Shown piece by piece: positions 43,995 to 47,228 of a DNA stretch of 64,000 bases. The stretch is from assembly GCF_001854805.1 (NCBI RefSeq), contig NZ_MBLO01000280.1, positions 1 to 64,000 on the forward strand, read 5' to 3'. The translations under genes and the position numbers were made by a program. The notes beneath the pieces are model-generated. The model was not told the origin of the DNA. It saw only the letters and a list, made by a program, of their open reading frames with translations, and did no database searches. The DNA comes from Pseudofrankia coriaricola. Its GTDB lineage: Bacteria; Actinomycetota; Actinomycetes; Frankiales; Frankiaceae. How positions within the stretch are numbered: the first letter of the stretch is position 1; each line of letters begins with the position of its first letter.

Positions 43995-44189
43995 CCGGCG
44001 TCCCTTCCTCGGCTTCTGTCCGTTCTTTCCACACGTGTGTGGCGGAACGCCGGGCGAGCCTAGGATCTCAACGAGAGCGCATCGCACCCCACTTGTGGGT
44101 AGTTGCGCCCGGCCGCGGCGGTCCACTGCCCACCATCGGGCGGCGCCCGGTGGCCCTTCCGCCGGGAGAAGAGAATAGGTCGTTCGGAC

Positions 44190-44347
44190 ACGTGTCTGCG
44201 TCAGGTCGGCGAGAAGCTCTTCCTAGGCCACCGCACGATCAGCGCCCACCTGTACCGGATCTTCCCAAGCTCGGGATCACCTCCCGGGCCGCCCTGCGCG
44301 ACGCCCTCGACGCCTACGCCGCCGACCTCGCGGACTCCGCGGAGTAG
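44190..44347 (+). pseudogene. LuxR-type HTH fragment, frameshifted
   Basis: One frame reads QVGEKLFLGHRTISAHLYRI and then a second frame continues KLGITSRAALRDALDAYAAD with TAG at 44345-44347. Joined, they form a LuxR-family C-terminal helix-turn-helix. The rest of the regulator is missing. Confidence 0.55.
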
Positions 44348-44443
44348 GTGGGCGAGCCGCGGGGCAGCCGCGGGCGCGGTGCGGAACCGAGCCCTCCGCC
44401 GGAGTGGCGCGGTTCCGCACGCGTGGCCACACGCTTTGCGCGT

Positions 44444-44989
44444 CTAGTCCTGGTGGGTCTGGGCTCCTTCCGTCGCGCAGACGAAGCCCTTGTCGCCGGT
44501 GCCAGTGCCGGTGCCACCGCCCACGCGCGTCAGGAGCGGCCCCTTGGCGTCACCCGGCTTCGGCAGCGCCTCGGCGTCCGCACCGGTGTAGACCTTGCCG
44601 TCCTTCACCACCATCGGGACGCCGGGCTTGGCCTCGCCGACCAGCTTCCCGTTGAGGTAGACCTTGCCGTCCTTCATCTGGAGGTCCTGGGCGCCCGGCG
44701 GCTTCGGCAGCGCCTCGGCGTCCGCGCCGACGTAGACCTTGCCGTCCTTCACCGCCACCGGCTCGCCGGGCTTGGCCGTGCCGACCAGCTTCCCGTTGTG
44801 GTAGATCTTGCCGTCCTTCACCTGGACGTTGTCGACGCCCGCGCCGCCCGGGGGAGCGGGGCAGGTCGACGGCTGGCCCGAGGGGCCCTCGGAGCCGGGC
44901 AGGGCCCCGGCGGCGTTGGCGGCCGCGGCGCCCGTGCCGGCGAGCCCCAGGGTGATCGCGCTGACGAGGACGATCCGACGGATGCGCAT
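44444..44989 (-). CDS. Secreted protein with tandem 48-residue repeat
   Basis: A 181-residue exported protein. A Sec signal peptide (RRIVLVSAITLGLAGTGAAA, cleavage near ANA-AG) is followed by two tandem repeats of 48 residues at about 57-97 and 105-145, each with KDGK-x-Y-x-NGKLVG, then VKDGKVY, then GADAEALPKP. Two cysteines (43 and 171) may form a disulphide. AGAGGAGGTGCACC precedes ATG 44989. It is divergent from an OmpR-type two-component system. The function is unknown; the repeats look like a small beta-rich binding module. Confidence 0.78.
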   Translation of the reverse strand: MRIRRIVLVSAITLGLAGTGAAAANAAGALPGSEGPSGQPSTCPAPPGGAGVDNVQVKDGKIYHNGKLVGTAKPGEPVAVKDGKVYVGADAEALPKPPGAQDLQMKDGKVYLNGKLVGEAKPGVPMVVKDGKVYTGADAEALPKPGDAKGPLLTRVGGGTGTGTGDKGFVCATEGAQTHQD

Positions 44990-45063
44990 GGTGCACCTCC
45001 TCTTTCTCGATGGCCCCCTCGTTGGGGCCGGGGCCAGACTCCCGTGCGCAGGCTGAGGCGCTC

Positions 45064-45089
45064 CTGAAGCCGGCTGAAGCGATCTTCAG
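45064..45089. promoter_or_regulatory. Three phased CTGAAG half-sites
   Basis: CTGAAG occurs at 45064 and 45074, and its complement CTTCAG at 45084, exactly 10 bp apart, i.e. one helical turn each. They are 35-60 bp upstream of the response regulator start, a typical place for OmpR-family autoregulation. Confidence 0.65.
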
Positions 45090-45123
45090 GTCGCCTATAG
45101 GTCGGATCCGTCAGGCTGTAGTC

Positions 45124-45798
45124 ATGCGAGTGCTGCTGGTGGAGGATGAGGAGCGGCTGGCCGGACTGCTGCGTGGTGGGCTGGCGGAGGAGGGTTTCGC
45201 GGTCGACGTCGCGCACAACGGCCGCGAGGGCCTGTGGATGGCGACCGAGCACCGGTACGACGCGATCGTGCTCGACGTGATGCTGCCCCTGCTCAACGGA
45301 TATGCCGTGTGCCGCCGCCTGCGGGAGGCCGGCAACTGGACGCCGATCATGATGCTGACGGCGAAGGACGGCGAGTACGACGAGGCCGAGGCGCTGGACA
45401 CCGGCGCGGACGACTTCCTGTCCAAGCCGTTCTCGTACGTGGTGCTGCTGGCCCGGCTGCGCGCGCTGGTCCGGCGCGGTGGGCGGGAGCGGCCGGTCGT
45501 CCTGACCGCGGGCGACCTGTCGGTGGATCCGGCAGGCCTGCGCTGCCGGCGCGGCGAGACGGAGATCGCGCTCACCGCGAAGGAGTTCGCCGTGCTGCAC
45601 GCGCTCGCCCGGCGCCCGGGCGAGGTGGTCTCCAAGGCGGAGCTGCTCGAGCAGGCCTGGGACTTCGCCTACGACGGCGATCCGAGCATCGTCGAGGTCT
45701 ACATCAGCGCACTGCGCCGCAAGATCGACGCACCGTTCGGCCGGGCGAGCCTGGTGACGGTGCGGGGCGCGGGATACCGGCTGGACGGGGGCTCCTGA
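45124..45798 (+). CDS. OmpR/PhoB-family response regulator
   Basis: A 224-residue regulator. The receiver has acidic pair EDEER, phosphoacceptor Asp in IVLDVMLPLLNG, Thr in MMLTAKDG and Lys in FLSKPFSYV. The winged-helix domain ends in VTVRGAGYRLDGGS. ATG 45124. It overlaps the kinase gene by one base. Phased CTGAAG sites upstream are probable self-binding sites that could also act on the divergent secreted-protein gene. Confidence 0.92.
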   Translation: MRVLLVEDEERLAGLLRGGLAEEGFAVDVAHNGREGLWMATEHRYDAIVLDVMLPLLNGYAVCRRLREAGNWTPIMMLTAKDGEYDEAEALDTGADDFLSKPFSYVVLLARLRALVRRGGRERPVVLTAGDLSVDPAGLRCRRGETEIALTAKEFAVLHALARRPGEVVSKAELLEQAWDFAYDGDPSIVEVYISALRRKIDAPFGRASLVTVRGAGYRLDGGS

Positions 45799-47228
45799 TG
45801 CGCTGGTCCGTGCGGCTGCGCGCGACCGTGGTGGCGACGGTGACGGTCGCGCTGGCTCTCGGAGCGGCGGGCCTCGTCCTGGTCCTGACGCTGAAGGGGA
45901 GCCTCGAGTCGGGCGCCGACCAGGAGGCGGGGCGGCGAGCGGACGAGGCCGCCGCCAGTCTCACGCAGGTCAGCGCGGGCGGGAACCCCGGCGAGCCCGG
46001 ACAGGTCGTCACCAACTTCGTCGCGCCCGACCCTGACGTACGGGTCGAGGGCCGCGCCGGCGGTCCGGCCCTGTCGGGGAGCTTCGGAAGTGGCGAAGGG
46101 GCCGGGGTGTCCTGGGGGTCCGGCTACGCCACCGCCCAGCGCCTGGTCACCACCTCGGCCGGGCCGGTGACCGTGTCCGCGCGCGTCTCGCTCGGCCCGG
46201 CCCGCGCGGCCCTGACGATGCTGCGCAACCTGCTTCTCGTGGGCCTGCCCGTCCTGCTGCTGCTCGTCGCCGGGCTGACCTGGCTGCTGACCGGGCGGGC
46301 GCTCGCCCCGGTGTCGGCGATCCGCGCGACGTTCGCCGACATCACGGCCACCGACCTGCACCGGCGCGTGCCGGTGCCCCGGTCGGGCGACGAGATCGCC
46401 CGGCTGGCGCGGGCGATGAACACGACCCTCGACCGGCTGGAACGGGCGGTCGAGCGGCACAAGCGGTTCGTCGCGGACGCGGCGCACGAGTTGCGCAGCC
46501 CGCTGGCGATCCTGCGCACGCGCCTGGAGCTGGGCCGGTATGAGGCGCCCGGCCTGGTGGGGGAGTCGCTCACGGACGTGGGCCGGCTCCAGGCGCTGGC
46601 CGCGGACCTGCTCCTGCTCGCCAGGCTGGACGCCGGCGAGCCGCTGCGGGCGGACGAGGTGGACCTGGGCGAGGTGGCCGCCGAGGAGGCGTCGCGGCCC
46701 CGGCGGGAGGACGTCCGGATAGCGCTGGACATCTCCCCCGACGTGGTCGTGGCCGGGTCAGCGTCGCACCTGCGCCGGATGGTCGGGAACCTCGTCGACA
46801 ACGCCGTGCGGCACGCCGAGTCGACGGTGACCGTGCGCGTGGCGGCGCCAGCGACCGTGCAGGTGTCCGACGACGGCGCGGGCATTCCCGCGGAGCACCG
46901 CGAGTCGGTGTTCGGCCGGTTCACCCGGCTCGACGAGACGCGGGGGCGCGACGGCGGTGGCAGCGGGCTCGGCCTGGCCATCGCCCGGGACATCGCGCGT
47001 GCCCATGGCGGCACGCTGACGGCGGTCGAGCCGGACGGCCAGCCGGGCGGGGGCGCGACGGGAGCGTGCCTGCGGGCCGAGCTCCCGAGCGCGGCGGGCG
47101 TTGCGGGTGTCGCGGGCGGCGGGGCGCGTGCGCTGGCCGCGGCGGGCGCCGCCATGCCCGGCGGGGTTCCGCCGCCGACCGCCGGAAGGTCCGTGTTTCC
47201 CGGGCGACGGCGCCGGTCGGGGACGTGA
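45798..47228 (+). CDS. Sensor histidine kinase, HisKA type
   Basis: A 476-residue membrane kinase. Helix 1 spans about residues 10-30, an extracytoplasmic region follows, helix 2 is LLLVGLPVLLLLVAGLTWLL, then HAMP. The DHp box is FVADAAHELRSPLAILRTRL, N box VGNLVDNAVRHAE, and G box GSGLGLAIARDIARAHGG. About 60 residues of Ala/Gly/Pro-rich tail follow the ATPase domain. Cognate to the preceding regulator. Confidence 0.9.
   Translation: MRWSVRLRATVVATVTVALALGAAGLVLVLTLKGSLESGADQEAGRRADEAAASLTQVSAGGNPGEPGQVVTNFVAPDPDVRVEGRAGGPALSGSFGSGEGAGVSWGSGYATAQRLVTTSAGPVTVSARVSLGPARAALTMLRNLLLVGLPVLLLLVAGLTWLLTGRALAPVSAIRATFADITATDLHRRVPVPRSGDEIARLARAMNTTLDRLERAVERHKRFVADAAHELRSPLAILRTRLELGRYEAPGLVGESLTDVGRLQALAADLLLLARLDAGEPLRADEVDLGEVAAEEASRPRREDVRIALDISPDVVVAGSASHLRRMVGNLVDNAVRHAESTVTVRVAAPATVQVSDDGAGIPAEHRESVFGRFTRLDETRGRDGGGSGLGLAIARDIARAHGGTLTAVEPDGQPGGGATGACLRAELPSAAGVAGVAGGGARALAAAGAAMPGGVPPPTAGRSVFPGRRRRSGT

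Follow-up and report, generated by a model that had tools for sequence, protein, structure and literature searches.

A predicted three-component signaling system with an exported repeat protein of an unnamed family

A gene for an exported repeat protein stands divergently opposite the genes of a response regulator and a sensor histidine kinase in the 64,000-nucleotide stretch of DNA analyzed here (the window). We favor, with moderate confidence, a three-component system that is self-contained: the regulator would have the exported protein as its main product, and this protein would probably act back on the kinase as a feedback ligand. Judged by sequence comparison, the exported partner would belong to a family that has no name.

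Results

The exported protein carries hairpin modules between two cysteines

A sequence-only reading had placed a secreted tandem-repeat protein at 44444-44989, and we found the open reading frame and two 48-residue modules as described, together with a Sec-type signal. The gene (44444..44989, minus strand) encodes 181 residues and is preceded by a Shine-Dalgarno-like GAGGAGG (44996..45002, minus strand) read from the sequence. The signal peptide covers approximately residues 1-26 (44912..44989, minus strand), with a hydrophobic stretch behind MRIRR that is typical of Sec signals (hydropathy maximum 1.93) and is kept in the orthologs. Its cleavage site was judged by eye, and the mature part was counted after residue 27 (154 residues).

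When the protein is aligned with itself, an offset of 48 residues gives a score of 195, compared with a best score of 58 in 500 shuffles. Module 1 (residues 52-99; 44693..44836, minus strand) and module 2 (residues 100-147; 44549..44692, minus strand) agree at 34 of their 48 residues and at 123 of the 144 underlying bases. The earlier wording that the mature protein is "essentially two modules" was slightly strong in that the modules make up 96 of its 154 residues. Four of the six orthologs in the genus have two modules and two have only one, so that module copy number changes, and across all exported proteins described below one, two or three copies occur. At an offset of 23 residues the self-alignment score is 61, indicating that each module is itself a weaker pair of half-repeats. 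These half-repeats, a level of organization beyond that described earlier, are of the KDG(K)xY type, occur twice per module and read roughly VQVKDGKIYHNGKLVGTAKPGEP and VAVKDGKVYVGADAEALPKPPG.

The only cysteines of the protein flank the modules, Cys43 in front (codon 44861..44863, minus strand) and Cys171 behind (codon 44477..44479, minus strand), and both are invariant in all six orthologs. The disulphide proposed earlier is likely, with C43 and C171, the lone conserved pair, as its predicted partners.

The adjacent genes encode an OmpR/PhoB-type two-component system

The divergent placement beside a two-component system was likewise borne out. Opposite the exported-protein gene lie a regulator of 224 residues (45124..45798, plus strand; PF00072 93.9 bits, PF00486 84.8 bits) and a sensor histidine kinase (45795..47228, plus strand) whose reading frame overlaps that of the regulator by 4 bases. 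Response_reg and Trans_reg_C domains in the regulator and HAMP, HisKA and HATPase_c domains in the kinase identify the pair as an OmpR/PhoB-type system, and hydropathy of the kinase indicates an outer loop at about residues 35-140 with a membrane segment on each side.

Whereas the exported-protein gene has its GAGGAGG, no clear Shine-Dalgarno-like stretch precedes the regulator start (45090-45123), and by sequence the regulator mRNA may be leaderless. On the other side of the exported-protein gene (44018-44453), an orthologous locus (L008, genome G006) carries a LuxR-type AAA regulator of ∼2.9 kb between stretches that abut in the window. The flanks of this gene are 84-86% identical to the window and overlap near 44202-44207. 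The window keeps only the tail of the gene with a GerE-like helix-turn-helix, so the gene was either lost in the window or gained in G006.

The three genes occur together in the genus

The exported protein has orthologs in six of the eight genomes of the genus, which include the 11.2-Mb genome of the window. A search of the 27 other genomes of the family found none. An ortholog of the kinase sensor region, 73-82% identical to that of the window, is present in exactly the same six genomes, and both are absent from G002 and G007; G001 holds a second, weak kinase-sensor match at 32%. The exported-protein gene is adjacent to and divergent from the regulator gene in all six positive genomes. In the ∼20-kb stretches from G001, G003 and G004 we did not find the Ser/Thr-kinase and AKR genes that are its flanking neighbors in the window, yet the three-gene unit is still together there.

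A profile of the exported protein (A1) searched against 393 genomes of the class detected nothing beyond the genus except one weak match of 24.6 bits, located beside a masked stretch in G337, which we set aside as signal-peptide-like. A scan of genome contigs found no relative.

A second actinobacterial family shares the arrangement

A regulator search of 246 genomes of the class showed that, beyond the genus, the closest relatives belong to one family (f17), where 25 of 120 genomes encode a regulator at E ≤ 1e-100 that is 75-91% identical to that of the window. We read all 25 loci, and in 24 of them a divergent exported protein of 121-229 residues with paired cysteines faces the regulator; the exception (L109) has a 287-residue lipoprotein-like reading frame instead. 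The KDGKVYVNGKEV hairpin is recognizable in 12 of these 24 proteins (11 by pattern and the three copies of L070 by eye) and absent in the other 12. Because half of the proteins are without a recognizable hairpin, homology across the whole set would rest on position, signal peptide and cysteines. Clear one-module homologs are found at L091 (regulator 91% identical) and, from a later profile search, at L124 (regulator 94% identical). The exported proteins of L070, L143, L145 and L146 have repeated KVFVDGKE modules and six cysteines, apparently a case in which another genus multiplied the hairpin independently.

We also performed the reverse test, in which 200 f17 genomes were searched with a profile built solely on the exported protein (A2); some of its 11 rows came from the f17 loci. 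The best 30 of 61 matches were examined, namely 25 at E ≤ 5.4e-6 and 5 weaker ones. An intact orthologous regulator is faced by 23 of the 25, and in genomes that had not been chosen via the regulator 13 of 14 matches face it. Among the weaker matches L149 and L151 face the regulator while L148, L150 and L152 do not. Co-occurrence with the two-component system, whose absence would have counted against the sequence-only reading, is strong in the genus, in the second family and in the reverse profile search.

The other two of the 25 matches depart from the common arrangement. At L141 (1866-2198) the orthologous regulator gene is without the middle of its receiver domain, with 110 residues left, and the divergent exported-protein gene is intact. 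At L137 (1312-1770; G422) a lone remnant of the exported protein has no signal peptide in frame and no regulator or kinase within the 11.5 kb read, which is perhaps decay following loss of the two-component system.

Beside more distant regulators, 64-69% identical to that of the window, PepSY-domain exported proteins occupy the same divergent position (L053 at 2091-2477, L078 and L085). This suggests that the slot opposite the regulator is one for exported partners of differing make.

A predicted operator array lies in the divergent spacer

The spacer between the divergent genes contains a five-site array, CTGAG-N6-CTGAA-N5-CTGAA-N6-TTCAG-N6-TATAG (45053..45100, no strand assigned), whose end lies 23 bp ahead of the start codon of the regulator. 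The consensus across loci is CTGAA-N6-CTGAA-N5-C(T/C)GAA-N6-TTCAG-N6-TTTAG with a fixed spacing of 11/10/11/11 bp, and the predicted response-regulator sites of the window match it at 23 of 25 positions; the other places in the window that score 17 or more merely overlap the array. For 31 loci (6 from the genus, 25 from f17) the mean score is 22.2 of 25, with a maximum of 16 in shuffled sequences (n=1240); 28 loci score 19 or more, and in 30 the array sits 23-24 bp before the regulator start. The three lowest loci (L093, L097 and L098; scores 13-15) retain two plus two sites and not the third. OmpR-family regulators bind direct repeats about one helical turn apart, and we infer that the response regulator binds the array at 45053-45100.

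Each of the six positive genomes of the genus has a single exact match to the 26-bp core of the array, and neither of the two negative ones has any; G004 has one additional site with a mismatch, and a reversed-pattern control gave none. The right half of the array has 28 matches in the 120 f17 genomes. All 16 exact matches fall inside the spacer between regulator and exported protein when coordinates are compared with those of the regulator loci, and of the 12 one-mismatch sites 2 are in the spacer and 10 elsewhere, compared with 10 matches of the reversed-pattern control. A regulon search of the window's own genome, allowing up to 2 mismatches, returned 12 sites compared with 38 for the control, and its best site (1 mismatch) is this spacer. 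By these pattern searches the operator array appears essentially unique to the spacer in the genome. Similar repeats are often present beside the more distant regulators (63-73% identical), three of which face PepSY proteins.

The exported protein co-varies with the outer loop of the kinase

We compared similarities at 28 of 43 loci, leaving out L109 because of its different protein, L065 and L009 because the start of the kinase was misread, and 12 loci with a kinase frame shorter than 400 residues in the fetched stretch. Relative similarity has a median of 0.85 in the regulator and 0.62 in the kinase core; in the outer loop it is 0.17, and in the mature exported protein 0.09. The exported protein varies more closely with the outer loop than with the core of the kinase. 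Once kinase core and regulator were controlled for to fourth order, the partial correlation between exported protein and outer loop is 0.34 (0/1000 permutations), and the rank-based value is 0.23 (1/1000). In distant pairs only, the corresponding values are 0.23 (1/1000) and 0.16 (36/1000). The C-terminal tail of the kinase, which also changes fairly fast (0.32), served as a control and gives -0.12 with the exported protein. A linear partial correlation of 0.74 was inflated by saturation and was replaced by the fourth-order-controlled values. The co-variation is moderate, tree structure and composition could contribute to it and signal-peptide trimming is imperfect; it supports contact of the exported protein with this loop of the kinase, short of proof.

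Domain and structure searches

The sequence-only reading did not recognize the module, and no known domain matches it robustly in domain-profile searches either: Pfam and NCBIfam gave no match to the exported protein at their cut-offs, save that the ortholog at L008 crosses the Pfam cut-off for CopK. The window protein has no match at E ≤ 10 to PepSY (PF03413), which the neighbors at L053, L078 and L085 do match, nor to the HbpS-family domain in Pfam. Literature searches found no description of the exported protein or of the three-gene unit.

Structure prediction of one module, also suggested earlier, yielded a model (with 14 native module sequences) of five short strands and one short helix (mean pLDDT 82.9, pTM 0.56) that matches nothing among PDB and viral structures at E ≤ 0.001 (best VIA Z 2.4). 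On this model the module may be a small hairpin unlike any other, or its size may be insufficient for a structure search to decide. The full-length model was unusable (mean pLDDT 42.2), and Foldseek with it returned nothing at E ≤ 0.001. PDB sequence matches to designed 'Cake' propellers led us to consider a beta-propeller, which we set aside as doubtful: the match at E 7e-10 is a sum of short motif matches of 5-9 bits per blade, and a PQQ-like propeller would have several four-stranded blades, compared with the five short strands and one helix of the module model.

Against the CopK profile (PF11525, cut-off 23.8 bits) the window protein scores 23.2, the L008 ortholog 26.9, L009 18.5 and L010 18.3, and L011 and L012 have no match. 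Single modules reach only 14.6 and 15.9 bits, which means that the full score adds up two weak matches, and the NCBIfam CopK model gives 16.1 of 123 bits. The reversed sequence and four shuffles have no match, indicating that the weak resemblance depends on the actual sequence. When 296 genomes of the class, six of the genus among them, were searched for CopK, none passed the cut-off. CopK also did not appear in the structure searches with the module model, where absence is no proof either way. We dropped CopK membership, as single modules are weak and the match is sequence-specific but not strong enough.

Discussion

Read from the sequence, the unit consists of a conserved regulator and kinase and, divergent from them, an exported protein that has two cysteines and between one and three hairpin modules. 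We propose that the phosphorylated regulator would bind the spacer array and set both divergent promoters, which would make the exported protein its main product besides the regulator and the kinase themselves. Held by one disulphide, the protein would act outside the membrane, where we infer contact with the outer loop of the kinase, some 105 residues long; as a feedback ligand it would tune kinase activity. Among the three roles offered by the sequence-only reading, that of a sensor accessory is the best supported; we found nothing for a surface ligand of another partner, nor for a protein that binds small molecules, and we identified no binding site.

The linkage and the operator array need no feedback, and both would look no different if the product had no effect back on the system. 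The exported protein could be output only, namely a structural or protective protein of the envelope that the two-component system switches on and that has no effect on the kinase. Fast change, gain and loss of modules and low-complexity linkers suit such a surface protein. However, the co-variation with the outer loop goes beyond kinase core and regulator and is absent for the kinase tail, and a single visible target besides itself is unusual for the regulator of a protective regulon. We therefore regard a pure output role as rather unlikely, though it deserves serious consideration. A quorum-like private signal, in which a fast-changing ligand of the lineage's own and a co-changing outer loop report self density or kin and drive only their own expression, seems improbable to us.

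Slightly more doubtful still is a reading in which the cysteine pair is a redox or disulphide sensor that reports the redox state of the envelope to the kinase in the manner of HbpS-SenS-SenR. That precedent (PMC4991794) speaks for it, as do the cysteine counts (33 of 43 exported proteins have exactly two cysteines, and another 4 have two in their mature part) and the placement of the pair before and after the variable part; yet a pair spanning most of the chain also looks like a plain structural disulphide, and the window protein has no CxxC motif. A CopK-like copper binder under a copper-type two-component system is very improbable, for although the L008 ortholog passes the CopK cut-off and regulator and kinase score best against heavy-metal models, those scores are under the curated cut-offs (TIGR01387/TIGR01386; regulator 219.7 of 279.2 bits, kinase 192.2 of 292.55 bits) and the only methionines of the mature part, at 105 and 126, are not conserved in the six orthologs, leaving no conserved counterpart to the methionines that bind Cu(I) in CopK.

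The favored reading, an exported feedback ligand of its own kinase, would bear on a class of proteins, the exported accessories of sensor kinases, whose function is poorly understood. Nature offers many variants of this one circuit of three genes, in which the operator can be read, only one target is visible and the number of modules differs among sister species. The three-gene unit makes ligand-kinase specificity and closed-loop signaling in actinobacteria directly testable, and the exported protein family, which has no robust Pfam or NCBIfam match, merits a name.

Several known systems invite comparison. CopK (PF11525), a periplasmic copper protein of Cupriavidus, is matched weakly across the KDGK hairpins, above the cut-off in one ortholog; single modules are far under the cut-off, however, and the ligand methionines are not conserved among the six orthologs. 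CseA-CseB-CseC and CpxP-type systems include an exported accessory of an envelope kinase, and this is the likeness to the window protein; no sequence relation was seen. The divergent PepSY proteins are exported from the same divergent position, beside regulators 64-69% identical and with CTGAA/TTCAG repeats in the spacer, but the window protein differs from them in having no PepSY match, a different repeat and a cysteine pair. In the HbpS-SenS-SenR system of Streptomyces, the exported protein interacts with the sensing domain of the kinase and modulates its autophosphorylation, and it is encoded beside sensor kinase and regulator, as at the window locus (PMC4991794). The regulator of that system was tested on upstream regions of several genes (PMC4991794), whereas for the window no further operator stands above background. 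By sequence the window protein is no member of the HbpS family, but in working manner HbpS-SenS-SenR is the closest precedent.
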